Part shown: positions 24,345 to 52,278 of the stretch, one piece after another
Layout: the number at the start of each line of letters is the position of its first letter
Numbering within the stretch: the stretch's first letter is position 1
Assembly (NCBI RefSeq): GCF_013337685.1
Contig: NZ_SUQN01000008.1
Coordinates: forward strand, 62,001 to 126,000
From: Citrobacter gillenii
GTDB taxonomy: Bacteria; Pseudomonadota; Gammaproteobacteria; Enterobacterales; Enterobacteriaceae
DNA: 64,000 nt
Direction of reading: 5' to 3'
Translations under genes and position numbers: made by a program
Notes under the pieces: model-generated
The model's database searches: none
Seen by the model: the letters and a program-made list of their open reading frames with translations, nothing else
What the model was told of the DNA's origin: nothing

Positions 24345-24511
24345 AATCTTTATCTGGAGCAAGGATGCTCTGGCAACGTCACACCGCCCCTTCCCCCCGC
24401 CACTCGTTCCGTAAGTGGACAAAAAACGCGCTTGCGACTAGCTTTTAAACTAACCGTTAATGTTGCTGTATGGCACCCGGTGAATTGAAGCGACAAAAGG
24501 AACTCGTGCGA

Positions 24512-25450
24512 ATGCAGGCCAAATATAAAAAAATAATAAATATGCTTTTTTATCATGAGTCGTGGGACATCATGATTATCAAGGATAATGGTTCGCATAC
24601 CTTTCCTACTAACACGTTGGATATACTGAAGCGTACCCCTGCGCAGCAACTTAAAAAGAAACACACCTTTCAGGCCGATCCTTTCATCATTGAAAGAGAT
24701 AATAAAGTTTATATTTTTTATGAGGCTTTACGCTTCCGTAATTCGAAGGGGATCCTACGCTGCCGTATACTCGATGCCGACTTAGCGGAACTCGATGATG
24801 TGAAGCTCGACGGTTTCGATTATCTAAAATGCCATTTATCCTTTCCTTTTGTATTTGAGAGCAATGGCCAGCTCTTTATGATCCCTGAGTCTTCAGAAAG
24901 AAAAGAGGTTATTTTATTTCAGTGCGTAGATTTCCCGCAACGCTGGAAGGCGATAAACGTTTTAATCTCGGACGAAGCATTAACCGATAACGTATTTTTC
25001 TCACTACACGGTGCCTGTTATCTGTTATCGACGACAATGAATAATGAGCTGATGATCCATACTGCCGAGAGCGTGAGCGGTCCGTGGCAGAAAATCACGC
25101 CCACTTTGCAGTTGAGCAACCTGCATCAGCGAGGCGCCGGGGCGCCCCATAACATCGGCAATACACTGTACTTCCTCACTCAGGAATGCACGCCTGAAAC
25201 CTATGGAAAATCAATTTACATCAAAGCATTAGTCACGCTAAACGCATTTTCTTTTGATGAAAAGCTTATTGCACAGGTCAATGCCGCCATCAACCAAAGC
25301 GACGGTGTACATACCTTAAACTTCACGAATAACTATCTTGTCTACGATAGTAAAATAAACACCTTTAGTTTTTTATCGATACTCAAAAAAATATCGTATA
25401 AGTGCATGGTGAAATTCAGAAATTTATCTCTTACCCGACGCCACTCATAG
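24512..25450 (+). CDS. Beta-propeller glycan protein (glucosamine inositolphosphorylceramide transferase N-terminal-like)
   Basis: 312-residue protein resembling the domain found N-terminal to plant GIPC transferases and often encoded in bacterial polysaccharide loci, a five-bladed GH43-like propeller. Landmarks are FQADPFIIERDNKVYIFYEA (around 50-69), HLSFPFVFESNGQLFMIPESS (read in two parts, around 108-128) and a repeated Asn-Thr-Leu-Tyr-Phe strand pattern. It likely binds or modifies a sugar in exopolysaccharide assembly. The start at 24512 has AAAGGAA upstream. It is followed by galE on the same strand; both converge on the main exopolysaccharide unit. Confidence 0.7.
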   Translation: MQAKYKKIINMLFYHESWDIMIIKDNGSHTFPTNTLDILKRTPAQQLKKKHTFQADPFIIERDNKVYIFYEALRFRNSKGILRCRILDADLAELDDVKLDGFDYLKCHLSFPFVFESNGQLFMIPESSERKEVILFQCVDFPQRWKAINVLISDEALTDNVFFSLHGACYLLSTTMNNELMIHTAESVSGPWQKITPTLQLSNLHQRGAGAPHNIGNTLYFLTQECTPETYGKSIYIKALVTLNAFSFDEKLIAQVNAAINQSDGVHTLNFTNNYLVYDSKINTFSFLSILKKISYKCMVKFRNLSLTRRHS

Positions 25451-25518
25451 CCCTGTATTTATAGCCGTGGCCTTGGTGAGTCAATAATCTTTTTCATAAG
25501 ATTTCCTCTGGAGGCTGT

Positions 25519-26535
25519 ATGGCAATACTTGTCACAGGTGGCGCAGGTTATATTGGTTCACATACCGTGTTGACGCTTCTCGAAAGAGGTGATGAAGTTG
25601 TGATCATCGATAATCTCACGAATGCCTCACAAACATCATTACATCGGGTCGCAGAACTCACCGGAAAAGAACCGATTATTTACATTGCCGACGTTCTGGA
25701 CAGAGAGGCATTAAAAACGATTTTTTCACACCATGACATTAGTGATGTCATTCATTTTGCTGGGTTAAAATCAGTTTCAGCATCCATAAAAGAACCCCTC
25801 GCGTATTATAATAACAATGTCACCGGAACGCTGGTTTTACTGAGTGAGATGCTGACTGCGGGTGTTCACAGCCTAATCTTCAGCTCTTCCGCAACGGTCT
25901 ACGGAGATCCGGAAAGCGTGCCGCTCAGCGAACAATCGCGCACCGGGGGAACAACGAATCCATATGGCACCTCTAAATTAATGGTCGAACAGATTCTGGC
26001 GGATTTTTCCCGCGCACACCCTGAATTTCGCCTCACCTGCCTGCGCTATTTTAACCCCGTCGGAGCCCATTCCTCAGGCCGAATTGGTGAGGATCCAAAT
26101 GGTATCCCCAACAACCTGGTTCCCTATATTTCTCAGGTTGCGATTGGCAAGCTTGAAACCGTGTCGGTGTTTGGCAATGACTACCCAACCCCGGATGGCA
26201 CTGGGGTACGTGATTATATTCACGTGATGGATCTGGCAACCGGCCATTTAGCGGCTTTGGATTGCCAGAATAAAGGTCCAGCCTATAAAGTGATAAACCT
26301 CGGTACCGGCATCGGCTATTCGGTGATGGATCTTATTGCCGCTTTTGAAAAAGCGGCTCAACGAAAAATTAATTATCAGATTGTTGCACGAAGACCCGGG
26401 GACATCGCCGAATGTTGGTCTGACCCGTCGCTGGCGCGCGAAGTACTGGGCTGGCAGGCTACCTACACGCTTGATGACATGATGCGCGACACCTGGAACT
26501 GGCAGAAAAATAATCCTGATGGTTATCACGCTTAA
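25519..26535 (+). CDS. galE: UDP-glucose 4-epimerase
   Basis: 338-residue extended short-chain dehydrogenase that interconverts UDP-glucose and UDP-galactose (some also the N-acetyl forms). The NAD site is GGAGYIGSH (residues 7-15), with catalytic Ser-Tyr-x3-Lys visible as SSSATVYGD and NPYGTSK (Tyr near 149). Length equals that of E. coli GalE (338). Its place inside an exopolysaccharide locus, not next to galT/galK, suggests a second copy dedicated to supplying UDP-galactose for the polymer. It is 68 bases after the propeller gene, so probably co-transcribed. A GGAGG site precedes the start. Confidence 0.92.
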   Translation: MAILVTGGAGYIGSHTVLTLLERGDEVVIIDNLTNASQTSLHRVAELTGKEPIIYIADVLDREALKTIFSHHDISDVIHFAGLKSVSASIKEPLAYYNNNVTGTLVLLSEMLTAGVHSLIFSSSATVYGDPESVPLSEQSRTGGTTNPYGTSKLMVEQILADFSRAHPEFRLTCLRYFNPVGAHSSGRIGEDPNGIPNNLVPYISQVAIGKLETVSVFGNDYPTPDGTGVRDYIHVMDLATGHLAALDCQNKGPAYKVINLGTGIGYSVMDLIAAFEKAAQRKINYQIVARRPGDIAECWSDPSLAREVLGWQATYTLDDMMRDTWNWQKNNPDGYHA

Positions 26536-26542
26536 CACCCAT

Positions 26543-26574
26543 CAACAATGAGCCTGCGGGCAGGCTCATTGTTG
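26543..26574. terminator. Bidirectional terminator between galE and the DUF4832 gene
   Basis: A perfect 14-base-pair stem (CAACAATGAGCCTG pairing with CAGGCTCATTGTTG, loop CGGG) in the 46-base gap between convergent genes. Symmetry and position fit a shared bidirectional terminator, although flanking U-runs are short. Confidence 0.75.
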
Positions 26575-26581
26575 CTAATGG

Positions 26582-27979
26582 CTAACGCGCCGTGATCGTC
26601 GACACACGATACCATCCGCTGCTCTGCTTCCCTTCATTGGCAAAGTTAATTCTCGCGGCGCCCGACTTATCCACGATCGCCACTTCAATGGCGTATTTTC
26701 CTCTCGGTAACGCACCGGGCATAGGGAGTTGATAATTCAGCTGATGTTGACCCGGCAGCCAGCGACGAATGTCTTCCGGTGAATTTCCCTGAGCAACAAC
26801 ATTGTTAGCATCATTAATAATACGAAATGACAGGGTGTAAGGAAGGTAAATCGGCGCAACGCCGTCATTATACCAGGTACTGATCAGCGCCAGGCTGCGA
26901 CCATTTTCCCATACTGACTCATGGCTCAGAGAGGCCAGACGAAAGCGATAGCCCAACCTGGTCAGTGCATAATCGACAATCGGCCGATACTCTCTGGGCA
27001 CCGTTCGCGATTTCAGGTTGAGGGTACTGGCATGATGCTTCACCGCCCAGTCAAAAATCCCCTGCACCTCTGCGCGCGTATAATGAAAAAGATTCTTCCA
27101 GTCCAGCATATACGAACAAATTTCCAGACTCACCGGCGATCGTTTCCAGGCATCGTTTAACCCGGAATAACTTTTCTGCGCAGCCAGCAATCGTTGCGGG
27201 TAATCATCTGCCATGTGATTCCAGTCATTTGAAAACACACGCAGGTCGCCCCAGCAGTCCGCGCGCCATCCAGCTCCTCGTGCCACCGCATTGGCCAGGC
27301 TTTGCCCACCGCTCATCAACATAATTTTTGGCGTTACGGGAAATGCAGCAAAGTGCATGGCGACGTAGCGATCTAGCTGCTCGGTGGTATATCGTTCCAG
27401 CAAGGGTTGCAGCACATCTTTCGGGAAGTTGCTGTTATGCCATTCTCCCCACGATCCCACCATGCCAATATCGACAAACGCCAGGTTCTGATTACCATCG
27501 TAGCGCTTGCCAAAAGCGTTCAGCAGACGTTGGCTGTAGGCTATAAACAGGGGATCGTCGAGATCCGGGATAAAGGTTTTATGATCGGGCGTCCATTTTC
27601 CTTTCACCCCTTTTTTAATCAGCCAGTCGGGGATCTGCGAGCCGCTTTCAGGCTCCGCAAGGGCCATAAACCGCAGCCCCACGTTCATCGCGGGCCGATG
27701 CGCCACCGCATATTTAAAGGCATCATCAACCAGCGCAAAATTGTACTGGCCTTCCACTGGCTCCAGTTCCCGCCAGTAGAAGCGTTCATATTCAAACCCG
27801 GTATTAGGGTAATCCGCCAGGCCCAACGTTTCACCATAACCCTGATGAAAACTGGCCACCCCAATCCCGGGGTTGGTCAGCGGACCGGTTACGGCTTTGG
27901 GGGTGACGGTGGTTAATGCAGCCATGGCCGTCAGCGGAAAGAACACACTCAATAGCGCCAAACCCCATTGACTCTTCAT
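26582..27979 (-). CDS. Exported DUF4832-type protein, putative glycan hydrolase
   Basis: 465 residues with a signal peptide (LALLSVFFPLTAMA, cleavage near residue 20). The N-terminal part looks like a TIM barrel with glycosidase-like segments: FEYERFYWRELEPVEGQYNF (around 62-81) and DIGMVGSWGEWHNS (around 169-182), where the Glu residues could be catalytic. The C-terminal part is a DUF4832-like beta domain. It is the last gene of the minus-strand exopolysaccharide unit. A periplasmic hydrolase that trims, releases or edits the polymer is plausible but unproven. Confidence 0.72.
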   Translation of the reverse strand: MKSQWGLALLSVFFPLTAMAALTTVTPKAVTGPLTNPGIGVASFHQGYGETLGLADYPNTGFEYERFYWRELEPVEGQYNFALVDDAFKYAVAHRPAMNVGLRFMALAEPESGSQIPDWLIKKGVKGKWTPDHKTFIPDLDDPLFIAYSQRLLNAFGKRYDGNQNLAFVDIGMVGSWGEWHNSNFPKDVLQPLLERYTTEQLDRYVAMHFAAFPVTPKIMLMSGGQSLANAVARGAGWRADCWGDLRVFSNDWNHMADDYPQRLLAAQKSYSGLNDAWKRSPVSLEICSYMLDWKNLFHYTRAEVQGIFDWAVKHHASTLNLKSRTVPREYRPIVDYALTRLGYRFRLASLSHESVWENGRSLALISTWYNDGVAPIYLPYTLSFRIINDANNVVAQGNSPEDIRRWLPGQHQLNYQLPMPGALPRGKYAIEVAIVDKSGAARINFANEGKQSSGWYRVSTITAR

Positions 27980-28009
27980 CGCCGTAACGCCTCCACCCGT
28001 TGGTTAACG

Positions 28010-28417
28010 CTAGTGGTTTTTCAGGCTTAGCCACCAGTCCCAAATACCCACATGAAAATTCTGGAACACATCAATACCCAACGCGGATTTGATCATATAC
28101 AGCGTCAGCAATACGCAGCAGGTAACGAACAACACAACAAACAGCAGTAACAATGCGATCAGAATATTGGATAGCGTCGATTCCCGACGATGCCAGTGAC
28201 GTAAATCCCTGCCAAACAAAAAGACCAGGTAAAAACGTCTACCGAAAAAGGGAAAGCTTCTACGAATATCAACCTGGTGTCTCGATCCCAGGGTAATAGC
28301 AAGGACCGCTTTTTCGACTCCGTCTTTTTGTTCGGCGGTCAACCCCTGCGAGATCTTCTCATCCAGTTGAGCATAAAATCGTTCAATGACGGGCGGTCGG
28401 TTCTGAGAGTTGGGCAA
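28010..28417 (-). CDS. Small membrane protein of the exopolysaccharide locus
   Basis: 135 residues, not recognised. The N-terminal 80 residues are soluble with a basic stretch (FFGRRFYLVFLFGRDLRHWHRR). One strong membrane segment follows (LSNILIALLLLFVVLFVTC, around 82-101), and an amphipathic Trp-rich C-terminus ends in SLKNH. It starts with TTG two bases after the stop of the upstream glycosyltransferase gene, an arrangement that suggests translational coupling. A role in membrane assembly of the polymer machinery is guessed from position only. Confidence 0.65.
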   Translation of the reverse strand: MPNSQNRPPVIERFYAQLDEKISQGLTAEQKDGVEKAVLAITLGSRHQVDIRRSFPFFGRRFYLVFLFGRDLRHWHRRESTLSNILIALLLLFVVLFVTCCVLLTLYMIKSALGIDVFQNFHVGIWDWWLSLKNH

Positions 28418-28419
28418 AA

Positions 28420-29532
28420 TTAACCTATATCTTTATCAATAGCGTGATAGACGGTGACTGTTTGTCTGGCGATTTCATGCCAGTTATAGTTTTGCAAATA
28501 TACACTATAGTCAACGCTATTTGCTGTCGCCCATCTCGCCATTTTCCCGGCCAGACTCGCCAGATTACCCACCTGAAAATACGCCTCTGCGGGTAACTTG
28601 ACCTCCAGATTCGCCGGAATATCGCTCACCACCGCAGGCAGAGAAAATGACATCGCCTCCAGCAGCGCTATCGGCAACCCCTCATGATACGACGGCATGA
28701 CAAACAGTTTTGCCTGCGAAAACACCGCCTGAAGTTCATCGCCGCGTAAAAATCCGGTCATCACCACACCTGGCGTATCAGCGGCCTGCTGTTTGAGACG
28801 AATACTGTATTCGGTCGGGTGATCCGCATCGCCAATTAACACTAATGGCATCGTCAAACCACTTTGTTGGTAGGCTGAAATGGCATCATGCATGCCTTTT
28901 TCTTCCACGAATCGCCCCACCACCACAAGATAGTTTTTCGGCTGGAGAGCATAACGCGACAGCGTCTGGTGAAGGGTATGTTCTGATAATGTTCGCGGTG
29001 CGTTCACGCCATTGTGAATTAAATGCGCATCATAGCGGCGATGCTTATTCTGGATAAGCTGATTAATGACTTCAGATATTACAATCACTTCATTGGCATA
29101 TCTCACTGCCCAGCGTTCACCGAGCAATAATATTTTCTTTGCCACATACCCCCATTTCTGGCGGTCATAGTCAGGTCCATGATGGGTGAAAACGACCTTC
29201 TTGCCCAGTAACCGCAATACCGGAACCACTAATCCCGGACCAATAGCGTGGACGTGCACGATAATCGAGTGGTCAAAACAGGTGCTGAACGCGGCTAAAA
29301 CGGAATGAACAATCGCTTCCAGCGAGCGTTTTTTAGGTGCCCACAGCGCATGGGTTTCGACATTCTTATACGATGAACGGGTGTAATTCACGTACGGCGA
29401 GCGGGCGATAACACAAATATCAACATCGCATAGCCGTTTAATTTCCGGATAAAGATGTTGGCAGTGCGTTTCCACGCCACCCAATACATCGGGAATACCG
29501 CGCGTGCCAAATACCGTTATTTTTTTACGCAT
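28420..29532 (-). CDS. GT4-family glycosyltransferase (DUF1972-type N-terminus)
   Basis: 370-residue GT-B glycosyltransferase. The N-terminus VFGTRGIPDVLGGVETHCQ is typical of rhamnosyltransferase-like GT4 proteins. The C-terminal nucleotide-sugar site shows VVVGRFVEEKGM (around 190) and the E-x7-E motif in SYHEGLPIALLEAMSF (around 283-298). The start at 29532 (MRKKITVFG) lies one base from the previous gene's stop; a longer form from 29607 would overlap that gene. The transferred sugar is unknown. It should act at the cytoplasmic face on the lipid-linked repeat unit. Confidence 0.88.
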   Translation of the reverse strand: MRKKITVFGTRGIPDVLGGVETHCQHLYPEIKRLCDVDICVIARSPYVNYTRSSYKNVETHALWAPKKRSLEAIVHSVLAAFSTCFDHSIIVHVHAIGPGLVVPVLRLLGKKVVFTHHGPDYDRQKWGYVAKKILLLGERWAVRYANEVIVISEVINQLIQNKHRRYDAHLIHNGVNAPRTLSEHTLHQTLSRYALQPKNYLVVVGRFVEEKGMHDAISAYQQSGLTMPLVLIGDADHPTEYSIRLKQQAADTPGVVMTGFLRGDELQAVFSQAKLFVMPSYHEGLPIALLEAMSFSLPAVVSDIPANLEVKLPAEAYFQVGNLASLAGKMARWATANSVDYSVYLQNYNWHEIARQTVTVYHAIDKDIG

Positions 29533-29533
29533 A

Positions 29534-30745
29534 TTATGGCCTGCCCAGCAGTTCTTTATACAGTGCCTGCAACGTTTCCATATGACCACTGAGCGCATAT
29601 TTATCACTCAGCCGTTGACGTCCATTGATGCCCATTACCCGTGCTTTCTCCGGGTCTTCGACCAGCGTATCCATCGCCTCTGCCAACGCCTGCGCATTAC
29701 CCGGCGTAAATAATATCCCTTCAATACCATCGCGAATTTGTTCAGGGATCCCGCCAATACGTGAGCCAATTACCGGCTTGCCTAATGACATTGCCTCTAA
29801 CACCGCCATCGAACAGTTTTCATAACATTCCGAAGGCAGGATCACCGCCCGGGCATGTTTAATCAGTTGGTCCAGGGCTTCCCCTTGTTGTACATAGCCT
29901 AAAAAATCCACGTCCGGATATTTGGCAATCAACTCGTCATGTAACGGGCCATGACCGACAATTTTCAGCGGCGCCGGGTTACGCATTTTCTGGTGAGCGG
30001 CCAGCAACGTAGCCACCCCTTTTTCACGGCTCAGGCGGCCAAAGTACAGCATATAACCTTCATCACCAGTCGTCTCCACGGGCCGGCTGTCATCTACGCC
30101 ATTGACGATGACATCGATACGCGAATGCGGCAGCACACGTAGCAAAATGCCGCGTAAAAATGCGCTGGGGGACACGATCACATCCAGCGCCTGATAATTT
30201 TGCGCAATGTATTGCCAGGTAGCCTCTAAAGAGAGCAGTAAACTCCTGGCGGCAGACCCTTCCTGACAGCGGTATCTGAAAGCATTGAAGACGGTCCCGG
30301 TAATACAGGCATCGCACACTTTCCCGTCGCGTAGCATAGAGTATGAAGGACAGACAATTTTATAGTCATGGGCGGTCAGCACCGTTTTACAGCCAAAATT
30401 GCGTGCGACTTTAATTAGCGCTGGCGTTAGCTGATGATAGATATTATGAAAGTGAACGATATCCGGGCGTTCTTTCTGCAGCAAGACCTGCATTTTTCGA
30501 CAGGCTTCGGCGTTATGAATAAAGTTAACCGCCGTTTTAATACCGCCTAACAGGTTACTGTCTGTATGGTAATCAACATTTTTGACAAAAAAATCCGCAT
30601 ACTCCGAGGGGAAATTTTTCTCATGCTGCATCGAAAAATCAATCACCTGCACGCCGGCCTTTTTCAGCATCTCGCGTTCCTGAAAATAAACCGTTTCCGC
30701 CCCGCCCTTTATAAAGAAAAACTTGTTAACTAATAAAATTTTCAT
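29534..30745 (-). CDS. GT4-family glycosyltransferase
   Basis: 403-residue GT-B enzyme. It begins MKILLVNKFFFIKGGAETVY, with the Gly-Gly acceptor-site loop, has LYFGRLSREKGVATLL (around 225-240) and E-x7-E in PSECYENCSMAVLEAMSLG (around 302-320). It probably adds one sugar of the repeat unit. It is 14 bases downstream of the GT2 gene, in a tightly packed unit. Donor and linkage cannot be read from sequence. Confidence 0.9.
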   Translation of the reverse strand: MKILLVNKFFFIKGGAETVYFQEREMLKKAGVQVIDFSMQHEKNFPSEYADFFVKNVDYHTDSNLLGGIKTAVNFIHNAEACRKMQVLLQKERPDIVHFHNIYHQLTPALIKVARNFGCKTVLTAHDYKIVCPSYSMLRDGKVCDACITGTVFNAFRYRCQEGSAARSLLLSLEATWQYIAQNYQALDVIVSPSAFLRGILLRVLPHSRIDVIVNGVDDSRPVETTGDEGYMLYFGRLSREKGVATLLAAHQKMRNPAPLKIVGHGPLHDELIAKYPDVDFLGYVQQGEALDQLIKHARAVILPSECYENCSMAVLEAMSLGKPVIGSRIGGIPEQIRDGIEGILFTPGNAQALAEAMDTLVEDPEKARVMGINGRQRLSDKYALSGHMETLQALYKELLGRP

Positions 30746-30759
30746 TACATCCGCTCTTT

Positions 30760-31749
30760 TTATTGTTGAATGATTTTACTGTTGGGCGGCGTCAGCGGAT
30801 CGCGCACAGGATGAAGACACCCTTTCAGCAATCCCACGGAACGGACAATCATATTAATGACGCTTTGAACCCCATCGCTGAGAGAACGATTTTGCACAAT
30901 TTTCCACAGTGTGAACGCCAGTAATGGCAGCAACACCAGGGTAATAATGCTGCCGTTGACGGTGACCAGTGCGGCAAGCAAGATCAACAGATACAGCGCA
31001 AATACCGCCTCATTTTTGACCATCTTGAGGGCGCGGGTGAAATACGGTGTTCCAAAACTACAGCGCAACAGCTCTCCCGGCGCCTGGTAATAGCCGCTCA
31101 ACCACCGATGTTTCAGCATCTTGAAGGTCGGCAGGGTGTGTGACGTATGGCTAAAATAAGGGATATCCAGACGACGCAGTTTGTAGCCGGCATCGGTTAA
31201 TCGCAGCCCCAGCTCGGCCTCTTCATAGGCGTGCAAATTCCGGTTGGTCAGATAGCCAATCTTTTCAATCGCCGCGCGACGATACAGCCCGCCGCCGCCT
31301 AAATGGTCACAATCGCCCACGGGATAGATCTGGTTAATGCGCTGTTTACGGGATTTGAACTCATAGTTCACGGCATCATCCATTTCGACGGTTCCCGCCA
31401 CGCCGGCATACTCTTCATGCGCCTGTAAAAAGGCGACGGCCCGATCGACAAATCCCTCTTCCAGCGCCATATCGCCGTCCATCAGCAGCAGATATTCGCC
31501 TTCGCTATAAAGGTAGCCCAGCTGGTGTCCGACACCGCAGCAGCGATCGCCCGGCTCCGTTAATGACACCACCGTCACCCCTTTATTCACCGCCAGTTGC
31601 TGGGTCCTATCTGTCGACAGGCTATCAGCCACAATAATTTTATGCGGATATCCCACCAGCTGTCGGCGGATGCTGTCGATGGTTTTCTCAATACCTTTAG
31701 CTTCGTTGAGCGTTTTAATACTCACCGAGATAAACGGGATATTATCCAT
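30760..31749 (-). CDS. GT2-family glycosyltransferase, membrane-associated
   Basis: 329 residues with a GT-A fold: FISVSIKTLNEAKGIEKTI at the start, IIVADSLSTDRT (around 38-49) and the metal-binding DxD as LLLMDGDMALEEGF (around 92-105). The C-terminal third has a hydrophobic stretch (ALYLLILLAALVTVNGSIIT, around 251-270) that would anchor it in the inner membrane. The start overlaps the stop of the polymerase gene by 8 bases, showing translational coupling. Substrate unknown. Confidence 0.9.
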   Translation of the reverse strand: MDNIPFISVSIKTLNEAKGIEKTIDSIRRQLVGYPHKIIVADSLSTDRTQQLAVNKGVTVVSLTEPGDRCCGVGHQLGYLYSEGEYLLLMDGDMALEEGFVDRAVAFLQAHEEYAGVAGTVEMDDAVNYEFKSRKQRINQIYPVGDCDHLGGGGLYRRAAIEKIGYLTNRNLHAYEEAELGLRLTDAGYKLRRLDIPYFSHTSHTLPTFKMLKHRWLSGYYQAPGELLRCSFGTPYFTRALKMVKNEAVFALYLLILLAALVTVNGSIITLVLLPLLAFTLWKIVQNRSLSDGVQSVINMIVRSVGLLKGCLHPVRDPLTPPNSKIIQQ

Positions 31750-33124
31750 ACCCTCCTCCTGCGCTGCGAAGAACGGTGCGACGAATCACTAAGCTTGAAC
31801 CGAGCGATAAATAAAACAGGAACTGTAACATCGGCGTTATCATCAGGATTTGGCTATAAGGTAAGCTCACTAAACACGCGATCGCAAAAGCGTTATACGC
31901 TGGCGCAAAGCTCAACAGTTGCAGATCCTGCGGGTCCAGTTGTTCAAGCGCCAGTACCGGTTTCGGCTGACACACTTTTAGAATATAAATAAACAGACCG
32001 ATAAACAGCAGCGTGCCAATCACGCCAATTTCCCACAGCAGCATACTCAGCGACGTGGAGTCCAGGATCAGGTTATAAACAATATTCAAAAACCCAGGTG
32101 ATACCGAACTTCCGCTGTTGGTCGCATTCAGGCCGTAGCCAAATAGCGTACCGGACAGTCCCCACAGATCGTTATTTTTAAGCCAGAACAGAAACGTCGT
32201 GAAGCGGCCCAGTTCACCGGTCGACATGATGTAGTTGGGATCAAAGATATAGCTGAGTGAATCGATAAAAACGCTAAAGGCGCTTTTGGTCGGATCGCCG
32301 CCAAAAGCAGACGAATAGTACCAGGCCAGAATCATCACCGACAGACCGATGAGTACCAGCATGCCAATAACAATCAGCAATAACGTTTTGAGATTAATTT
32401 TACTGACGTCTTTAACATAGCTCGGCGAAATCCACACCCAGGCCAGGAACAGCGGTGAAAGCAAGATGACAAACTTCACTTCACCAATAATACACAGCCC
32501 AAACCCAAGAATAATATGCAGCGCCATCGATTTAAACGTCGTCAGCCCGTGTTTATATTCCGAGAGCTTAAGCAACATAATCAGCAGGCAAAATAACCCC
32601 ATTGCCGCCGTATTACCGCCGCCCATTGGGTCGCCCCCGAAGGTCCCGACCACCGAGTCCCATTTTTCCTCTTCGCCGCGCTGCGCCACGCGCTGGGGAA
32701 CCACCAGTAATACCTGATAAATCATCACCGGGACCTGGGCGTAAAACACCCAATACAGATAGCGCGTTGCCCGATAAATCTGTGATTCCCGGCAGAATCC
32801 CAGCAGTAAACAGATCATCACCAGCGACAGTGCTATCTCGTTTTTAAAGGCCACAATCGCGACGGTTACCCCGCCCTGCAGCAGGGTTGAAGCCCCAGCC
32901 AACAGCAGAAAAGAGAAATACAGCGCAAGAATAATGGTCTCCTGGGCATCCAGATGCAGCGGGCTCTCACGCGTTTGCATCACCATTAATCCGACCATGA
33001 GCAGCGTCAGGAAAAACGGGATCCACAGCACCGACTGCATACCGGTAAAATATTGCACCAGTCCACACAGGATCAGCGTGATAAAGGTATAGGCCTGTAA
33101 ATAATATCCGGTATTCAGGGTCAT
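31742..33124 (-). CDS. Wzy-like polysaccharide polymerase
   Basis: 460-residue multi-spanning protein with about 10-12 hydrophobic segments and a large hydrophilic loop (roughly residues 275-345), the usual O-antigen ligase/polymerase shape. Wzy proteins join repeat units at the periplasmic face. Sequence similarity in this class is low, so the call rests on topology, length and position between the flippase gene and glycosyltransferase genes. It overlaps the flippase gene by 4 bases. Confidence 0.75.
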   Translation of the reverse strand: MTLNTGYYLQAYTFITLILCGLVQYFTGMQSVLWIPFFLTLLMVGLMVMQTRESPLHLDAQETIILALYFSFLLLAGASTLLQGGVTVAIVAFKNEIALSLVMICLLLGFCRESQIYRATRYLYWVFYAQVPVMIYQVLLVVPQRVAQRGEEEKWDSVVGTFGGDPMGGGNTAAMGLFCLLIMLLKLSEYKHGLTTFKSMALHIILGFGLCIIGEVKFVILLSPLFLAWVWISPSYVKDVSKINLKTLLLIVIGMLVLIGLSVMILAWYYSSAFGGDPTKSAFSVFIDSLSYIFDPNYIMSTGELGRFTTFLFWLKNNDLWGLSGTLFGYGLNATNSGSSVSPGFLNIVYNLILDSTSLSMLLWEIGVIGTLLFIGLFIYILKVCQPKPVLALEQLDPQDLQLLSFAPAYNAFAIACLVSLPYSQILMITPMLQFLFYLSLGSSLVIRRTVLRSAGGGYG

Positions 33125-34332
33125 AATATCACCGGCTTGTCTTTCAGCAGATTGGCGCGCTGGTTCATTTTGAAATAAATAAACCCATAGCGAATAAATG
33201 TCAGCGCAGAGAACAAGATGACTGACGTGGCATAGTCTTTATAAAAATAGGGCACCACCACAAAAGCGACTAACACAATCGCCAACTGTTCCAGCTGAAT
33301 ACGCAAAAAATAACGATGGGAGCCAAAAATAAGTTCAATTACCGTGAGTGGGCTGATTGCCAGCGCCGGGAACAAATAGGGCAGCATATAGCGGGATGTC
33401 TCAATGGAGTTAATCCAGTCCTCGCTAAACCCCAGCCGCATCACGATGGGATAGAAAATAAACACCCCGAGCGTACAAACCACCCCAAGCACTAACAGCA
33501 GCAAACGCACCTTTGTATATTCCTGATAATTAAAGGTGTTATTTCTGAAATCAATAGACCACTTGGAGAAAATGGTATTGCGCACCGCATTGCCGATGAT
33601 CACCACCGGTGCCAGACAGAACCGACTGACGACGGAAAAATAGCCCGCCGTCAGCGCCGAGAACCAGAAGTTAATCAGCATAATCGGTAAATTGCTGCTG
33701 GCCATCGCCAGTACCTCAGCGCTGCCGACCTTGCTGATGTGATGAATATTTTGCTTAAAGAATCGCCAGTTATTCAATGGATGCAGATGCCCAAACGTCA
33801 CCGAGCGGATATCAAACGAATGCAAAATACAGCTCGATGTCAGTAGGATCATCGCGCACGCCCACGACCAGTAAAAGGTTTGTACCTGATGCGTGAGCAG
33901 TACCGAGAGCACCACCACCACCGAAACCGAAATTCGCTGAAAAATCAGAAAATAAAAATTGGCCGTGCGCAGCGATAAGTTTTCTGAGATTAACGCCCAC
34001 GCCGTAGAGAGCGTCAATAAATAGAGAAACAGGATATTCTGGTGAAACAACCACGCAGTCAGTACGGCGTAGGGCAACGCAATCAGCGTGCTTTGCAGCA
34101 GGCAAAACACCACATTTTGCGCGAGACTGTCGTCCTGCTGCTTAGGAATTAACAGCTGTGAGGCAAAGGTGCAAACCTGCGCCCCCACCACGGCAATACT
34201 GTAGTTGAGCGCATACAGTCCAACTTCGGCCATGTCATACTTATGTGAGATCAACCAGATAGACAGCGCACCAATCAACTGCGAGATGATTGATGAGCCA
34301 GCTATCGTGGATGCGCTCTTCAGTAGACTCAT
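33121..34332 (-). CDS. Wzx-like polysaccharide flippase
   Basis: 403-residue membrane protein of the polysaccharide transporter (MOP/PST) family with about 12 segments. It starts MSLLKSASTIAGSSIISQLIG, typical of Wzx, with the charged residues of the flippase channel in the early helices. It would flip the lipid-linked repeat unit across the inner membrane. ATGA-type 4-base overlaps with the genes on both sides indicate one transcript. Confidence 0.82.
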   Translation of the reverse strand: MSLLKSASTIAGSSIISQLIGALSIWLISHKYDMAEVGLYALNYSIAVVGAQVCTFASQLLIPKQQDDSLAQNVVFCLLQSTLIALPYAVLTAWLFHQNILFLYLLTLSTAWALISENLSLRTANFYFLIFQRISVSVVVVLSVLLTHQVQTFYWSWACAMILLTSSCILHSFDIRSVTFGHLHPLNNWRFFKQNIHHISKVGSAEVLAMASSNLPIMLINFWFSALTAGYFSVVSRFCLAPVVIIGNAVRNTIFSKWSIDFRNNTFNYQEYTKVRLLLLVLGVVCTLGVFIFYPIVMRLGFSEDWINSIETSRYMLPYLFPALAISPLTVIELIFGSHRYFLRIQLEQLAIVLVAFVVVPYFYKDYATSVILFSALTFIRYGFIYFKMNQRANLLKDKPVIL

Positions 34333-36461
34333 ACGCGGCCTGGTGTCGTCAACAGTTGGTCAGTGCTGAAGTTCAGTGAACGCAGCCCTTCTTGCGTTTC
34401 GAGGTTTTTTTCTTCCACCCCGTTCAACACCGCGCCAATTACCACGCCCTGATTATCCTCAATCTTATCCAGCGCGCTGGCGATCGTCTGTGCCGTCCCC
34501 ACACCGGCTTTCACGATGAAAATAACCCCGTCGGCAGCGCGCTTAATCAGCTGAATATCCTGGCTCTGATTCACCGCCGCCACATCAATAATAATGCGCT
34601 GATAGCGCGACTTCAGCTCGCGCATCAAAGGCTCTACATTTTCCGACGACAGCATCAGTAAAGAGGAGATAGTGGACTTACCTCGCGGGATAAAATCAAG
34701 ATTCTCATGTATCGTCATCCGCGCGTTCTCCAGCACGATTTCGCCCCGTAGCAGCTCCGCCATGCCCGCAGATGCCGGCGTGGCGAGTTCATTCGTCAGG
34801 CCATCGTTATTAAAGAAGTCTGCATCAATGAGTAGCGTTTTCTGATCGAAACTAAAGGAGCTTGCCAGCAAATTGGCCAGCAGGGAACGCCCTTCACCGT
34901 GCCCGGCAGACGCCACCGCAACCGTCTGTAATGGCCGGCTATCCAGCATTATCCGGGTACGAATACCGTGAATAATGTCGGCATTCAGCGGGTTCTTCAA
35001 AATCATATCCCGTACCTGCGCGCGCCCGGTTGTGCCGCTAAACCGGCGGATTTCACCCAGCGGGGTGACGTTAAGGCGTTGACTCATACGGCTCAGGGTG
35101 CGAATGGAATTGTCCATTGCTGCTTTGACGATGAAGTACATGATGCTAAACACCACCACCATCAGGACCACCATCATCAACAGCAATGACTTATTCGGTT
35201 TTACCGGTTTTAACGGTGGCACTGCAGGATCGTACAGCACGGCATCTGCATTGACACCGGACAACGACAGTTCCTGAGTGCGCTGATACAGCGATTTATA
35301 CAGGTCTTCCATTTTGTCTAACGACAGTTTCTGGCTGTTATAGCCATCTCGTTTGGACGCCATTTGTTGGAAGATGTCTTTCTGCTGCGCCACCTGCTGC
35401 TGATAATTCTTTTCATCCGCCAGCGCGGCCAGATATTGCTGACGTAAGCCAACTTTCAGTTCGCCCAGCACCCGCCCGGTTTGACTTTGGATCGACTGAA
35501 CGTCGGCTTCCGCTTTTAAAATCGTCGCGTGTTTCGGCCCATACAGTTTTCGCTGTTCCGACAGCGCGCGCTGCGCCTGAATCAACGCGATACGTAAGTC
35601 CTGAATCTGGGCGTGGTCAGAAACAGAGGGCAAAGAAATGATGCTCTCAAGGGTTCTCCCCCGGCCATTCACTTCGTTATAGACCGACTCCGCCGCAACC
35701 CGACGCTGGGTCGCATCGGCCAGACGATTAGTCACAATACTAAGCTGCTCGGTTTCAAAACCGTCAATACCGCGAAAGGTCAGCAGCCCGGCATTTTTCA
35801 GGTAGCCATCCATCGTCTCTTTTTGCTTCACGATCGCAGCCTGTAGCTCTGCCATCTTTTCCGCATTCAGCGCCTTCGCGTTCTCCACTTTCTGCCGTTT
35901 TTGCTCAACCGTATAGTTGATGAAAGCCTGCGCGACGCCGTTGGCTATCTCAGCCGATTGCTGTGCTGAGGGTGACTCATAGGAAATAGAGGCCAGATTG
36001 GTCGTGCGAATGCCGATGACCTTCAGATGTTGAGATAATGTCTTCAGCGCCTGATCGACTCTCTGTTGTTGATTATCCCCGCTATTAGCCCCCGCTGCGG
36101 CCAATTTATTGCCAGTAAAATCGGGATTTTCATCCAACTTCAGGTCGCGTACCGCCTGCTCGAGGATAATGCGTGACTGCATCAGCGCATATTGCGTTTC
36201 GTAATATCCGCTGCGCGTTGAATCAAAACCATCCACCTGTGGAAACGGCGAAACGTTATCGGCTTGTGCCTTAATCAGCACCGTCGCCGTCGAGACATAC
36301 TTTGCTGACATCATGCTGATCAAGGGATACGCCACCACTCCGGCGATAATTCCGGTTAGCGCAATTTTCCAGGCGTTCTTTTTAAGTTCTTTGGCAAAGC
36401 GGGAGAGTTCGACTGCGTTTTCTCGCTTTTTGCCGTTTTCCACTATAGAGAGTTTCATCAT
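34329..36461 (-). CDS. Wzc/GumC-like polysaccharide co-polymerase with degenerate kinase site
   Basis: 710-residue inner-membrane protein: N-terminal Wzz domain between two membrane segments (around 35-55 and 420-440), long periplasmic coiled coil (about 190-400), C-terminal BY-kinase-like cytoplasmic domain. Where active kinases have GxGKS/T, Walker A here reads SAGHGEGRSLLANLL (around 517-531), with Arg for the catalytic Lys and Leu for Ser/Thr. The second motif is LLIDADFF and Walker B IIIDVAAV. The C-terminus (TDQLLTTPGRV) has no Tyr cluster, and no low-molecular-weight phosphatase gene is near. I infer a scaffold or chain-length protein without tyrosine kinase activity. Confidence 0.88.
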   Translation of the reverse strand: MMKLSIVENGKKRENAVELSRFAKELKKNAWKIALTGIIAGVVAYPLISMMSAKYVSTATVLIKAQADNVSPFPQVDGFDSTRSGYYETQYALMQSRIILEQAVRDLKLDENPDFTGNKLAAAGANSGDNQQQRVDQALKTLSQHLKVIGIRTTNLASISYESPSAQQSAEIANGVAQAFINYTVEQKRQKVENAKALNAEKMAELQAAIVKQKETMDGYLKNAGLLTFRGIDGFETEQLSIVTNRLADATQRRVAAESVYNEVNGRGRTLESIISLPSVSDHAQIQDLRIALIQAQRALSEQRKLYGPKHATILKAEADVQSIQSQTGRVLGELKVGLRQQYLAALADEKNYQQQVAQQKDIFQQMASKRDGYNSQKLSLDKMEDLYKSLYQRTQELSLSGVNADAVLYDPAVPPLKPVKPNKSLLLMMVVLMVVVFSIMYFIVKAAMDNSIRTLSRMSQRLNVTPLGEIRRFSGTTGRAQVRDMILKNPLNADIIHGIRTRIMLDSRPLQTVAVASAGHGEGRSLLANLLASSFSFDQKTLLIDADFFNNDGLTNELATPASAGMAELLRGEIVLENARMTIHENLDFIPRGKSTISSLLMLSSENVEPLMRELKSRYQRIIIDVAAVNQSQDIQLIKRAADGVIFIVKAGVGTAQTIASALDKIEDNQGVVIGAVLNGVEEKNLETQEGLRSLNFSTDQLLTTPGRV

Positions 36462-37018
36462 TAGAAGAACCCCATGCCAATGATCACAACGTCACCTGGA
36501 CGCACCGAGTGCGTTAAATCCACATTCTCCAGCAGCTGATGACTGCCCGCCTGGCGAATATTGATATCTTTACGGTCAGCGCGATCGGTAAATCCGCCCG
36601 CCTGAGCGATCGCTTTCTCCACGGTAAGCCCCGGCTCATACGCGAAAGCATTAGGGCTTTTCACTTCGCCTGATACGTAGTATTTACGAAATTCAGCGAC
36701 GCTAACCGTCACCATGGGATTAACCATATATCCATTACGCAAGCGTTGCGTTAATTCCGCAGTCACCTGGTCCGGCGTTTTCTCTTTTAATGCGAGCGTG
36801 CCAATATAAGGGAAATTGATGGTTCCGCTTTTATCGACGATAAATTTCATGGTCATCTCGGGTTCGCCGTAAACCACAATATTGACCGTATCCCCCGCAC
36901 CAAGACGGTAATCCTCTGCGCTTGCCGCAGGGTCATCCGTTAATGGTGGCCTGGACGTTGCGCATCCGACCAACAGGATACTGAATAGAAAAAACGCGCA
37001 CAGTTCTATTATTTTCAT
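36461..37018 (-). CDS. Short Wza-like polysaccharide export lipoprotein
   Basis: 185 residues with a lipoprotein signal (lipobox LVGC, Cys19). The Poly_export domain begins YRLGAGDTVNIVVYGEPEMT (around 37-56), followed by a SLBB-like domain (YYVSGEVKSPNAFAYEPGLT, around 112-131). It is about half the length of E. coli Wza and lacks its C-terminal membrane-spanning helix, so it cannot alone form the outer-membrane channel. The adjacent beta-barrel gene probably supplies the pore. The stop codon shares one base with the Wzc-like start. Confidence 0.9.
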   Translation of the reverse strand: MKIIELCAFFLFSILLVGCATSRPPLTDDPAASAEDYRLGAGDTVNIVVYGEPEMTMKFIVDKSGTINFPYIGTLALKEKTPDQVTAELTQRLRNGYMVNPMVTVSVAEFRKYYVSGEVKSPNAFAYEPGLTVEKAIAQAGGFTDRADRKDINIRQAGSHQLLENVDLTHSVRPGDVVIIGMGFF

Positions 37019-37019
37019 T

Positions 37020-38306
37020 TTAGATCTGAACCTTAGCTGTAAGCATAATCATAGAATTATCATAACCTAGCGTTCTGATGACTTCCTGATTGTCGTTGGG
37101 ACCGATATAAAACGAGTCAGTATCCTTATTAGAATTCAATGTATCTAACTGATATTTAATTGCAAAATTCACCGACGGCGTGTAGTCATAGCTCATCGTT
37201 ACGCTAAATACACCCCTTTTATCATGGCGATCCTTGTTCTGTTTTTTATAGTCCTCCATGGTGTATGCATAGTCGAGGAGGGTAGAAAAGCGATTACCCA
37301 ACCAAAAATGCTGGTAAGAAATCCCATATTCAGTAACTAAAATATAGCCACCAACTTCCGACGGGTCTTTAATACTTTGCGACGAACGCGCGGTGAAAAC
37401 AGACTGCTGTAACGGTTTCCACTCCCCTTTTATATCCCAGTTTAGACCATTAAAATCATGCGAATTTGGATCGTTTTCAAATGTTTTGTACAACCATGAA
37501 ATATTCATGTCGACATTCGTTTTACCCGTCAACTGCGATTTCAGGCCGTAAAGCAAATAGTATTCATTACTGTCTTTTTCTGAGTTGTTATCGTAATGAC
37601 GCTGGTTAGTAATAAAGCTATAGCGAAAACGTGTTCTCGACGTGTACTGGTCAAATATCTCCGCAACCAGGCTATTTTCATGCCATTCCTGCTGCTGAAT
37701 GTAAGTGTAAAAATCTTCACTGGTATCCTGAACATCCGACGTATTACCGAACGTCAGCTTTTTGTATAACAACGCCAGTTCCGCTTTACCGCGCCCATCC
37801 GGCGCGCCGTAGCTGTAACGCAGTTCACTGTTGATAAAATTGGTCGTCAGTGGAGATTTAATCCCATACTGGCGAAACTGGCTTGGCAAAAAACCCTCAG
37901 TAATATCGCGACCACGATCTTCATGCCCAAGCGAATCTTCCAGATTCAGGGTTAGGCCGTGCATTTGTCCGTAACGCCAGGCACCGTTAAAACGGAAAAA
38001 ATGATCGTTGTAGTTATCCGCAGAATCGCTGGAGTAGTGGCGATAATCCCCCGAATACATCAGCAAATACGTATCCTGACCGCGCTCGCCGATCATACTC
38101 AGCACGGGCGCAGCACTCTGAAAGGCGGAACCTTTCGCATCGCGGTTATGTGGCTGATATGTCACGTTATCATCATAACCATAATCCACAGCAACCTTGC
38201 CCTGGAAGTCGATCCCCGCAAAGCCAATGTGTGATTTCGGTGTCAGATCAGCCCATGCGGACTGCGATATCACGATCCCGGTAATAACGAGTATTTTAGT
38301 ATGCAT
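37020..38306 (-). CDS. Outer-membrane beta-barrel protein, EpsL/GumB-partner type
   Basis: 428 residues with a signal peptide (ILVITGIVISQSAWA, cleavage after Ala19) followed by alternating aromatic/polar strands (for example VAVDYGYDDNVTY, RFRYSFITNQRHY, VTMSYDYTPSVNF) typical of an outer-membrane barrel with about 16-18 strands. Such barrels accompany short Wza proteins in methanolan-type loci, where they are the likely exit pore. The ATG at 38306 is preferred because it gives a normal signal peptide; a TTG at 38318 is possible. It overlaps the WcaJ-like gene by 11 bases. Confidence 0.78.
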   Translation of the reverse strand: MHTKILVITGIVISQSAWADLTPKSHIGFAGIDFQGKVAVDYGYDDNVTYQPHNRDAKGSAFQSAAPVLSMIGERGQDTYLLMYSGDYRHYSSDSADNYNDHFFRFNGAWRYGQMHGLTLNLEDSLGHEDRGRDITEGFLPSQFRQYGIKSPLTTNFINSELRYSYGAPDGRGKAELALLYKKLTFGNTSDVQDTSEDFYTYIQQQEWHENSLVAEIFDQYTSRTRFRYSFITNQRHYDNNSEKDSNEYYLLYGLKSQLTGKTNVDMNISWLYKTFENDPNSHDFNGLNWDIKGEWKPLQQSVFTARSSQSIKDPSEVGGYILVTEYGISYQHFWLGNRFSTLLDYAYTMEDYKKQNKDRHDKRGVFSVTMSYDYTPSVNFAIKYQLDTLNSNKDTDSFYIGPNDNQEVIRTLGYDNSMIMLTAKVQI

Positions 38307-39711
38307 TCTTACCGACAAATCCTTTGAAAATAGTTTTAATAATAATTTTTATATCCAACCATAATGACCAGTTTTGAATATATTCAATGTCATACTGGAC
38401 ACGTTTTTCCATCTTATAGAGCGCATCGATTTCCCCACGAAACCCGTTAATCTGCGCGAGACCGGTGATCCCTGGCTTCACTTTATGGCGGATCATGTAA
38501 TTTTCGACCTGCTTACGGTACTGCTCGTTATGCGTAACCGCATGCGGTCTGGGACCGACAATCGACATACTGCCCTGCAACACATTAATAAATTGCGGCA
38601 GTTCATCGAGCGAGGTGCGACGTAAAAAACTACCGAATTTCGTCACCCGTGGATCGTTCTTCGTAGCCTGAATAACGGTGTCAGAATTCTCCATCACCCG
38701 CATTGAGCGAAACTTCCAGACCTTAATTTTTTGCCCACTCAGACCATAGCGGTCTTGTTTGAAAAATACCGGGCCGCGCGAGGTGAGTTTGATCCCAATG
38801 GCGATGACTAGCATCAGTGAGGAGATCATCACCATAATGAGACTCCCGAGTACCAGATCTTCAGTCCGCTTAATAAACGATCCTGCACCTTCAAACGGCG
38901 AGCTAAAAATGCCGATGGTTTGCAGGTTGTGGATCGAGCGCAGCTTGGACATATTGTTACTGTAGGTATAAAAGTCAGGCACAATATAGGTATCGACCGT
39001 GGTATCAGACATCATCGCCAAAAAATGACGAATGCGCTGTAACGCCACCATCGGTAGCGCAATATAGATCTCATCTATATTCCCATTTTTGGCTTCTTCA
39101 ACTAAATTAATGACCGAGCCGCGAAAGGGGCTTTTTATTTTATCAACCACATCGCCACAACGATCTGGACTGCGCTCATCATAAAATGCCAAGTCTAACT
39201 TGATGTTGGCGTATTCCGTAGTCAACGCATTTTCCGCCGCCAGACCATTCTCGGTCAGGCCAATAACGGCAACGCGAATATGTTTCTTGGCTGAGTATTT
39301 AAAAAGAAAAAAACGAATAAAATAAAGGACAGGTAGTGGAATAAAATACCAAATGACAATAGCTGAACAAAAAGGCGGATCCAGTGCATTCAGATCCCCC
39401 AGCGACTGAGGATCCGCAATGGTCATACGAACCCACTCATTACAGAAAATGGCCAGTAGCGTACACGCCAGCAGTCTCTTTTGGTTGCGCAAGCTAATGG
39501 TTTTGATCTTCTGCTGGTACATTTTTGTGTATTCAGCAAACAACAAAAACAGAAGTGAGAAGATCACACTGAGGATTACAATCGTCGAAAACGGCAGCAT
39601 GCCTAGCAGTTTTGCGCTAAAAATTAGAGTAAAATTGATGACAAGGAAATCGACCAGTTTTATATAAACTGGATATCCTTGACTGCTAATCTTTAGCGAA
39701 TTTTTAAGCAT
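38296..39711 (-). CDS. WcaJ-like undecaprenyl-phosphate glucose phosphotransferase
   Basis: 471-residue polyprenol phosphate hexose-1-phosphate transferase. Four N-terminal membrane segments are followed by a CoA-binding-like fold (HIRVAVIGLTENGLAAENAL, around 142-161), a fifth hydrophobic segment (around 290-310) and the catalytic bacterial sugar transferase domain with KVWKFRSMRV, SLDELPQFINVL and SIVGPRPHAV. The C-terminus FKGFVGKNAY is WcaJ-like. It attaches the first sugar phosphate, probably glucose, to the lipid carrier. It is the first gene of the exopolysaccharide unit, so its promoter should lie in 39712-40007. Confidence 0.92.
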   Translation of the reverse strand: MLKNSLKISSQGYPVYIKLVDFLVINFTLIFSAKLLGMLPFSTIVILSVIFSLLFLLFAEYTKMYQQKIKTISLRNQKRLLACTLLAIFCNEWVRMTIADPQSLGDLNALDPPFCSAIVIWYFIPLPVLYFIRFFLFKYSAKKHIRVAVIGLTENGLAAENALTTEYANIKLDLAFYDERSPDRCGDVVDKIKSPFRGSVINLVEEAKNGNIDEIYIALPMVALQRIRHFLAMMSDTTVDTYIVPDFYTYSNNMSKLRSIHNLQTIGIFSSPFEGAGSFIKRTEDLVLGSLIMVMISSLMLVIAIGIKLTSRGPVFFKQDRYGLSGQKIKVWKFRSMRVMENSDTVIQATKNDPRVTKFGSFLRRTSLDELPQFINVLQGSMSIVGPRPHAVTHNEQYRKQVENYMIRHKVKPGITGLAQINGFRGEIDALYKMEKRVQYDIEYIQNWSLWLDIKIIIKTIFKGFVGKNAY

Positions 39712-40007
39712 ATCTCAGCCTATTATCGATTGATTTTAATTATTTTTTTATCGCTTGATATGGCTAATTATATCACAAGCTCAAAAATCGCAATGTCGGA
39801 GTGTCAGCAAATGTAATTACTAGTATTACAAATTGTGACTACAGTCTCATGAAAAATTCATACCCACTTGATTTAATTGAATATTATTTTCATGACCATT
39901 TGATTTTTATTATTAGAAATATATGATTATCTACAACGGATATATTATTGACAGATAACCATTCGTCGACTAGCAAAATAGGTTATGCCTGATTATTTTT
40001 AGCTGCT
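39712..40007. promoter_or_regulatory. A+T-rich region upstream of the exopolysaccharide unit
   Basis: About 296 bases between wcaJ-like and tctE, both on the minus strand. It is strikingly A+T-rich. I find no JUMPstart/ops element (GGCGGTAG), which often precedes long polysaccharide operons. A partial palindrome of TAATTACTAG/TAGTATTA type sits around 39816-39830. The promoter of the long minus-strand unit is expected here, possibly silenced by H-NS/StpA given the composition; that is inference. Confidence 0.4.
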
Positions 40008-46172: not shown

Positions 46173-46270
46173 ATTACAAACCTCTGGTTAGCAATCATCT
46201 AACTTTTAGCCAGTTTATCCGATTTCATTTTCATTAAAGAATAGCGGCTCACACAATTGCGGAGGTGGTT

Positions 46271-48111: not shown

Positions 48112-48130
48112 GCGCGAAGGAATTAAGCGG

Positions 48131-49399: not shown

Positions 49400-49422
49400 C
49401 CCTTTTACGACAGGACGCTATT

Positions 49423-50871: not shown

Positions 50872-50895
50872 TAAAACAATACTGGAGAACACCTG

Positions 50896-52179: not shown

Positions 52180-52200
52180 ACCCCGTATCTGAGCGGGGAT

Positions 52201-52278
52201 TGTAGGCCGGATAAAGCGCATGCGCCGCCTCCGGCAATATTGTGATGCCCGGTAGCGCTCCGCTTACCGGGCCTACGG
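52201..52278. repeat. REP/BIME pair between gabT and gabP
   Basis: Units at 52201-52236 (TGTAGGCCGGATAAAGCG ... CTCCGGCA) and 52245-52278 (GATGCCCGGTAGCG ... ACCGGGCCTAC). They lie inside an operon, so they may lower gabP expression relative to gabDT or mark a 3' end. Confidence 0.8.

Follow-up and report, generated by a model that had tools for sequence, protein, structure and literature searches.

A probable Wzx/Wzy-dependent exopolysaccharide locus of Citrobacter gillenii and its relatives in Enterobacterales and Vibrionaceae

The window analysed here is a 64,000-nucleotide stretch of Citrobacter gillenii DNA (RefSeq assembly GCF_013337685.1, contig NZ_SUQN01000008.1, positions 62,001 to 126,000, forward strand). 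It contains a block of 11 abutting or overlapping minus-strand genes (26582-39711), which comprises WcaJ, an outer-membrane beta-barrel, a short outer-membrane polysaccharide export (OPX) protein, a Wzc-like copolymerase, Wzx, Wzy, a family 2 glycosyltransferase (GT2), two family 4 glycosyltransferases (GT4a and GT4b), a small membrane protein, and a DUF4832 protein. The block very probably encodes a complete Wzx/Wzy-dependent exopolysaccharide (EPS) system of a conserved enterobacterial and vibrio type, with the mechanism proposed below. The locus is genuine and complete, and probably functional. It adds an uncharacterised example to a known kind of biofilm-polymer system and does not represent a new kind. 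The points that are new here are its conservation across two orders, a copolymerase that in most copies is probably kinase-dead, and the proposal of glycosidase activity for the DUF4832 protein.

Conservation of the block across two orders

Gene order: Loci were sought with two conserved Wzy peptide patterns in one genome for each of 84,980 species. Relatives without these peptides escape the scan; 80 of its 86 matches were kept, giving 74 distinct loci, and the removal of L103-L106 (26-29% identity, block absent) left 70. Ten core genes have an identical order in 56 of the 70 loci listed, mainly from Enterobacterales and Vibrionaceae, and this recurrence excludes a chance gene order. Seven further loci (six Photobacterium and one Vibrio) lack GT2 only. 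The remaining seven include five on contigs that end in or near the block, L082, which is rearranged, and L091, which lacks WcaJ and GT2. Among the accessory genes, the GINT1_N propeller gene is found in 31 of the 70 loci and galE in 23. The first-pass annotation, which was made from the sequence alone, regarded the gene set as unusual. This view is wrong or too strong, given the recurring order and the whole-block matches to Klebsiella oxytoca cps2 (from the available text of its description) and to a Vibrio vulnificus genome. In the Photobacterium locus L090 (11380-20404), two other open reading frames (ORFs) of 166 and 407 aa replace GT2, and two DUF4832 genes have a GINT1_N gene between them.

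Distribution: A Wzy profile gave hits in 30 of 392 sampled genomes of the window's family (15 of 154 genera) and in 25 of 227 Vibrio genomes, and the protein is also encoded in five of 72,556 plasmid records. At the DNA level, the region 24350-42000 has matches in 31 of 5426 E. coli genomes, none covering more than 80% of the query. For its wzx-wzy part the number is 30 of 5426, and in 29 of these the match spans at least 80%. Whole-block counterparts also occur in E. coli ATCC 8739 and in Enterobacter plasmids. The closest named Wzy among the matches listed is that of Citrobacter sp. Res13-Sevr-PEB04-36, at 98%. A Wzy tree of 72 rows (L087 excluded as too short, midpoint root, several long branches) mostly tracks taxonomy, with a support of 100/99 for the Enterobacterales clade. 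Its exceptions are Yersinia rohdei, which groups with Silvania and Leclercia, and Psychrobacter, which lies inside Photobacterium.

Plasmid and IS1-flanked copies: An IncR plasmid of Enterobacter cloacae (L024, 5848-23211) bears the block alongside patB (84%) and carbonic anhydrase (96%), which are also its neighbours in the window. The Wzy on this plasmid and the one of Citrobacter portucalensis are identical. In E. coli ATCC 8739 (L023, 2543-19888), the block lies between ybaE and cof. The presence of IS1 elements on both sides suggests that this copy was acquired as a mobile segment.

Identity contrast: The genes that specify the polymer and those for priming and export differ in mean identity to the window. 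In Vibrio, Wzx, Wzy, GT2, GT4a, and GT4b share 59-66%, against 40-52% for WcaJ, the barrel, OPX, and Wzc. This mean covers 12 of the 14 so-named loci, with a second V. cincinnatiensis omitted and Vibrio sp. CK2-1 grouped with Photobacterium. The same two sets give 63-66% against 42-56% in the Klebsiella group (6 loci), and 62-66% against 38-50% in Aliivibrio (5 loci). Conservation of polymer-specifying genes across two orders is unusual for capsule and O-antigen loci. On these identities, the simplest reading suggests that a single repeat unit has been conserved among Enterobacterales, Vibrio, and Aliivibrio. Photobacterium probably makes a variant of the polymer, since GT2 is absent there.

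Copolymerase, DUF4832 protein, and proposed mechanism

Copolymerase: The alignment of 79 rows including the window was reduced to 74 by removing five duplicates, and the split copy L067 was left out because of its low coverage. The window copy has Arg525 at the position of the Walker-A lysine and no tyrosine in its last 35 residues. The lysine is replaced in 65 of the 74 copies, by Arg (36), Ser (11), Ala (9), Asn (5), Thr (3), or Val (1). The last 35 residues contain no tyrosine in 57 copies and one in 17, and none of the 74 has a tyrosine-rich tail; the comparators, the other Wzc of this genome and V. parahaemolyticus CpsD, have 6 and 3 tail tyrosines, respectively. A phosphatase gene was not found among the ORFs of the block. 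These residues point to a copolymerase that is probably kinase-dead in most copies.

DUF4832 protein: The protein has an apparent signal peptide, as read by eye. Glutamates E73, E179, and E286 are invariant in 63 of 63 aligned copies. E179 lies in the context W-G-E-W-H and E286 in E-x-C, and the aromatic and acidic surroundings are also invariant. The Pfam match to glycoside hydrolase (GH) family 42 has an E of 0.0016, below the cut-off, and 29 PDB sequences at E <=1 include GH10, GH35, and GH42 members and a few unrelated proteins (best 0.006). It is proposed that E179 would be the acid/base and E286 the nucleophile of a clan GH-A-like glycosidase. Gram-positive Pel loci are also accompanied by DUF4832 genes, according to the available part of one study (PMC7112168).

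Mechanism: WcaJ would put glucose-1-phosphate onto undecaprenyl phosphate, and GT2 and the two GT4 enzymes would extend the lipid-linked glucose to a repeat of about four sugars. The glucose-primed repeat of this size that was predicted in the first-pass annotation fits WcaJ and three glycosyltransferases. Its prediction of galactose was drawn from galE alone, and with galE in 23 of the 70 loci it does not stand as a general feature of the polymer. Wzx would flip the repeat and Wzy would then polymerise it, while the Wzc-like copolymerase with its degenerate kinase would act as a scaffold without a tyrosine phosphorylation cycle. For export, the short periplasmic OPX lipoprotein would dock on the outer-membrane beta-barrel, a separate protein, and the polymer would pass through both. 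Trimming or editing of the polymer is probably the task of the exported DUF4832 protein, acting as a GH-A-like glycosidase, and galE and the propeller protein may be lineage accessories for sugar supply or modification. The product may be used in biofilm formation or aggregation. A wider proposal is put forward tentatively, with rather less than even confidence. It holds that one non-serotype exopolysaccharide is common to Enterobacterales and Vibrionaceae, that its repeat was kept while its export drifted, that the copolymerase lost kinase control early and works without a Wzc/Wzb cycle, and that DUF4832 edits the chain.

Several observations weigh against parts of this account. The Walker-A lysine is kept in 9 of the 74 copolymerases (six Photobacterium, Psychrobacter, Aeromonas, and one Vibrio). 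The window copy retains the Walker-A' (LLIDAD) and B-like (IIID) segments, as many others do in part, so that kinase inactivity is not certain; Arg for Lys is a mild change. The DUF4832 gene is present in 57 of the 70 loci and was not detected in 13, some of which are on cut contigs. The best PDB alignment of the protein has a residue other than Glu at E179, the glycosidase matches end before E286, and the single-sequence model (predicted local distance difference test score 35.8) is not usable for the fold. The identity contrast is gone in the Photobacterium group (7 loci), where Wzx and Wzy at 47% lie under WcaJ (50%) and OPX (52%), and it is not clear within Citrobacter. In Vibrio, the small membrane protein (44%) and DUF4832 (49%) are kept no better than the export genes. 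The selection of loci by Wzy introduces a bias toward conserved Wzy, and the putative Wzx and Wzy have weak profile support. No polymer structure for the block or its described relatives was found in the openly accessible literature.

The rival view, considered somewhat unlikely, is that the DUF4832 protein is no enzyme but has an inactive glycosidase fold and serves for binding or as a scaffold. No tested activity was found in the literature that uses the family name, and the weak similarity to glycosidases (E 0.0016 in Pfam and at best 0.006 in the PDB, in stretches short of E286) agrees with this view. Against it, the invariance of E179, E286, and their surroundings in all 63 copies is what an active retaining glycosidase would show.

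Gene calls, accessory genes, and neighbourhood

All named genes are intact ORFs, and most have family signatures in Pfam or NCBIfam (Table 1). The gene set and the tight minus-strand unit with a converging propeller gene and galE, as outlined in the first-pass annotation, were confirmed. Neighbours on the minus strand overlap by 1-11 bases or have gaps of at most 30 bases, and the two accessory genes converge on the unit from the plus strand. Refined starts are 24470 for the propeller gene, which is present as claimed but does not begin at 24512; 29532 for GT4b; and an ATG at 38306 for the barrel, with an upstream TTG at 38318.

Table 1. Features of the exopolysaccharide block and its accessory genes in the window
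Feature	Coordinates	Strand	Evidence
WcaJ-type undecaprenyl-phosphate glucose phosphotransferase, operon gene 1	38296..39711	-	NCBIfam TIGR03023; Pfam Bac_transf E 1.4e-70
Outer-membrane beta-barrel (BBP2_2), proposed export pore	37020..38306	-	Pfam BBP2_2 E 5e-13; adjoins OPX gene; orthologue annotation outer membrane beta-barrel protein
Short OPX, 185 aa	36461..37018	-	Pfam Poly_export and SLBB; no Wza_C match; lipobox by simple pattern
Wzc/GumC-like polysaccharide copolymerase, degenerate tyrosine-kinase domain	34329..36461	-	Pfam Wzz, GNVR; alignment of 74 distinct block copies and two comparators
Wzx-type flippase (putative)	33121..34332	-	Pfam Polysacc_synt_3 21.5 bits, cut-off 23; position; orthologue annotation
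Wzy-type polymerase (putative)	31742..33124	-	Position and hydrophobicity
Family 2 glycosyltransferase (GT2)	30760..31749	-	Pfam Glycos_transf_2 E 3e-14
Family 4 glycosyltransferase GT4a	29534..30745	-	Pfam Glycos_transf_1 E 1.7e-32
Family 4 glycosyltransferase GT4b, DUF1972 N-terminal region	28420..29532	-	Pfam Glycos_transf_1 E 8e-23, DUF1972 E 2e-9
Small membrane protein, 135 aa, core gene of block	28010..28417	-	No Pfam match above cut-off, no NCBIfam match
DUF4832 protein, apparent signal peptide, proposed GH-A-like glycosidase	26582..27979	-	Pfam DUF4832 E 6e-17
galE, second genome copy, accessory	25519..26535	+	Pfam Epimerase
GINT1_N beta-propeller protein, no evident signal peptide, accessory	24470..25450	+	Pfam PF24793 E 8e-27

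WcaJ passes the NCBIfam WcaJ cut-off of 410.75 with 491.7 bits, and scores 421.8 bits with the colanic-type model NF007518, under its cut-off of 684. The Wzx orthologues are annotated as lipopolysaccharide biosynthesis protein or flippase. The Wzy name is provisional, being taken from position and a hydrophobic sequence; Pfam and NCBIfam gave no match, and the orthologues are annotated as hypothetical protein. In the small membrane protein, R73, Y107, K110, S111, G114, and W126 are invariant among 72 aligned copies. Profile matches of the glycosyltransferases are generic only and name no donor sugars. Solved relatives of the OPX protein include Wza and PslD. Of 74 OPX copies, 45 match a simple lipobox pattern, and the other 29 come from Vibrionaceae and, in one case, Aeromonas; the pattern is crude, and at least one plausible lipobox (L081) escaped it. 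The propeller protein has two weak matches in the PDB, the best with an E of 0.12. The second GalE elsewhere in the genome is 54% identical to that of the block.

Regulation: Sigma-54 sites were found upstream of WcaJ in 3 of 68 regions, against 0.6 expected; they are not conserved, and none is in the window. Promoter-like matches in the block number 23, against 22.5 in shuffles, and terminator-like matches 25, against 17.5 (sd 4.2).

Neighbourhood: The operon is preceded on its own strand, immediately upstream, by two-component genes resembling tctE/tctD (40008-42081), with tctD named in a Salmonella record. Such genes stand beside WcaJ in 8 of 11 Citrobacter loci, and the diverging neighbour genes are presumably tctCBA. 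Further along, the region 45282-63604 contains, by Pfam, a LysR regulator, CsiD, an FAD-dependent oxidoreductase, a class III aminotransferase, an amino acid permease, and the large and small chains of ribonucleotide reductase.

Comparison with known systems

Colanic acid and rugosity loci: WcaJ-type priming and the Wzx/Wzy/Wzc logic are common to the block and to group 1 capsule and colanic acid systems, yet it is scarcely credible that the block is a variant of either under Rcs/RfaH control. The OPX protein is half-length, Wzb and Wzi are absent among the ORFs of the block, and the copolymerase has no tyrosine-rich tail. Neither an exact ops element (GGCGGTAG) nor an RcsAB box with <3 mismatches was found in 72 upstream regions (five duplicates). 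Another contig carries a Wza-like frame of full length, a Wzc whose tail is rich in tyrosine, and a further WcaJ, so the block is a second Wzx/Wzy export system of this genome; the genome has one match only to the block Wzy. Colanic acid and group 1 capsule were therefore rejected, on the half-length OPX, the lack of ops and of a good RcsAB box, and the separate Wza-like, Wzc, and WcaJ genes.

A locus of the Vibrio polysaccharide (VPS) type, with the polymer of V. cholerae vps, V. parahaemolyticus cpsA-K, or V. vulnificus brp as its product, is also a very unlikely reading of the block. The comparison covers V. parahaemolyticus cps and V. vulnificus brp, with each of the two genomes recognised by a published primer (brpI for V. 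vulnificus) as one of 227 Vibrio genomes. The first four V. parahaemolyticus cps genes resemble V. cholerae rugosity genes, as the available text of one paper states (PMC2987987). The head of both cps and brp matches the block in kind and order, with identities of 47-50% for WcaJ, 24-25% for the barrel, 43-44% for OPX, and 25-26% for Wzc. Beyond this head, however, neither has a significant match to Wzx, Wzy, GT2, the small membrane protein, or DUF4832, and the GT4 similarity is 21-27%. In V. parahaemolyticus cps itself, the four values are 50%, 24%, 43%, and 26%, with otherwise a 22-27% GT4 similarity, and its copolymerase keeps the Walker-A lysine and tail tyrosines, unlike the window copy. 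In brpABCDFHIJK, as far as its available description goes, BrpJ is the flippase and is encoded close to the operon's end, unlike the block Wzx. The V. vulnificus genome holds both brp and the block, with brp (L149) on the other contig and only the head in common, and V. parahaemolyticus is absent from the 25 Vibrio genomes with the block Wzy. As whole-block matches, V. parahaemolyticus cps and V. vulnificus brp were rejected, since only the priming and export head is common.

Other candidates: Pantoea alhagan has a full-length Wza with Wzb and Wzc in the available description and is thus different. The mannose/fucose genes of a Citrobacter portucalensis plasmid are unrelated, and a report of sedimentation resistance in E. 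coli concerns colanic acid and yjbEFGH rather than the block; both points apply to the accessible text of these sources.

Klebsiella oxytoca: The reading of the block as one system of a conserved EPS type is consistent with its described relatives. The locus cps2 of K. oxytoca DSM 29614 lists all 11 genes in equal order (PMC6258164, Table 3). It differs in that DUF4832 is followed by a gene for a WcaB-like acetyltransferase, and galE and the propeller gene are missing from the list in the available part of that paper. The authors tentatively attribute the known rhamnose-containing polymer to cps1 rather than to cps2 (PMC6258164, available text). In K. oxytoca NBRC 105695 (L065), identity to the window is 42-66% per gene, and the Walker-A residue is Ser, not Arg.

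Vibrio vulnificus: The larger contig of the V. vulnificus genome (L148) has 11 of 11 genes in order at 40-67% identity, with no galE or propeller match in the 19.8 kb examined. This locus is probably VV1_2302-2312, or 'EPS-III', to judge from term counts for PMC8268162, where 'VV1_2302-2312' occurs twice, VV1_2302 26 times, and EPS-III 25 times. In the available part of PMC12004946, VV1_2305 is given as a copolymerase with a pseudokinase joined to it, which fits gene 4 if the locus starts at VV1_2302. Another study, in its available text, states that two major V. vulnificus EPS clusters, activated by DctD2, supply biofilm-maturing exopolysaccharide (PMC9040800), and by term counts one of them would be EPS-III. 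No earlier equation of the enterobacterial block with the V. vulnificus locus was found in the open-licence literature. According to the first-pass annotation, a match of the whole block to a described capsule or O-antigen locus would speak against a distinct polymer. Whole-block matches to described loci do exist, but these are EPS loci and not capsule or O-antigen loci. An anonymous enterobacterial cluster is hereby linked to a Vibrio EPS locus, with the polymer-specifying genes conserved across two orders. The presence of the block in E. coli ATCC 8739 offers a place to study the polymer, the OPX/barrel pore, the copolymerase, and the DUF4832 family.

Citrobacter freundii: The gene cpsA of C. 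freundii IFO 13545 is a 1413-bp undecaprenyl-phosphate glucose phosphotransferase gene, the disruption of which lowers flocculation to 62% of wild type (PMC6414854, available text). Leaving out the stop codon, the block WcaJ gene measures 1413 bp in 12 of 13 copies (eleven Citrobacter loci, E. coli, and a plasmid), and the thirteenth (L033) is cut. The colanic-type WcaJ frame of the genome has at most 469 codons. The block WcaJ is a candidate for cpsA, their identity not being proven.

Composite export and Myxococcus: A short OPX with a barrel is an established and widespread third export class, according to the available text of two studies (PMC9601211, PMC9603273). The first-pass annotation correctly set this pair apart from colanic acid and group 1 systems, but its restriction to methanolan-type systems does not hold, in view of this class. 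As the class is defined in the accessible part of PMC9601211, the OPX has <=280 aa and a barrel is encoded within five genes; the window OPX has 185 aa and no outer-membrane-spanning C-terminal domain, and the BBP2_2 gene adjoins its gene. The Myxococcus EPS system, with EpsX/EpsY and EcpK, is similar in its short OPX, its outer-membrane barrel, and the concept of a phosphorylation-independent copolymerase, as far as the available sources describe it. Fused copolymerase-pseudokinase variants are already noted in the available text of PMC12004946, which describes EcpK as a separate pseudokinase that lacks all three Walker motifs. The window copolymerase fits the pseudokinase description only in part: its Walker A is degenerate and a tyrosine-rich tail is absent, but its Walker-A' and B-like segments are kept, unlike those of EcpK. 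The two systems also differ in arrangement, as EcpK is a protein of its own, whereas the kinase domain of the block is fused to the copolymerase.

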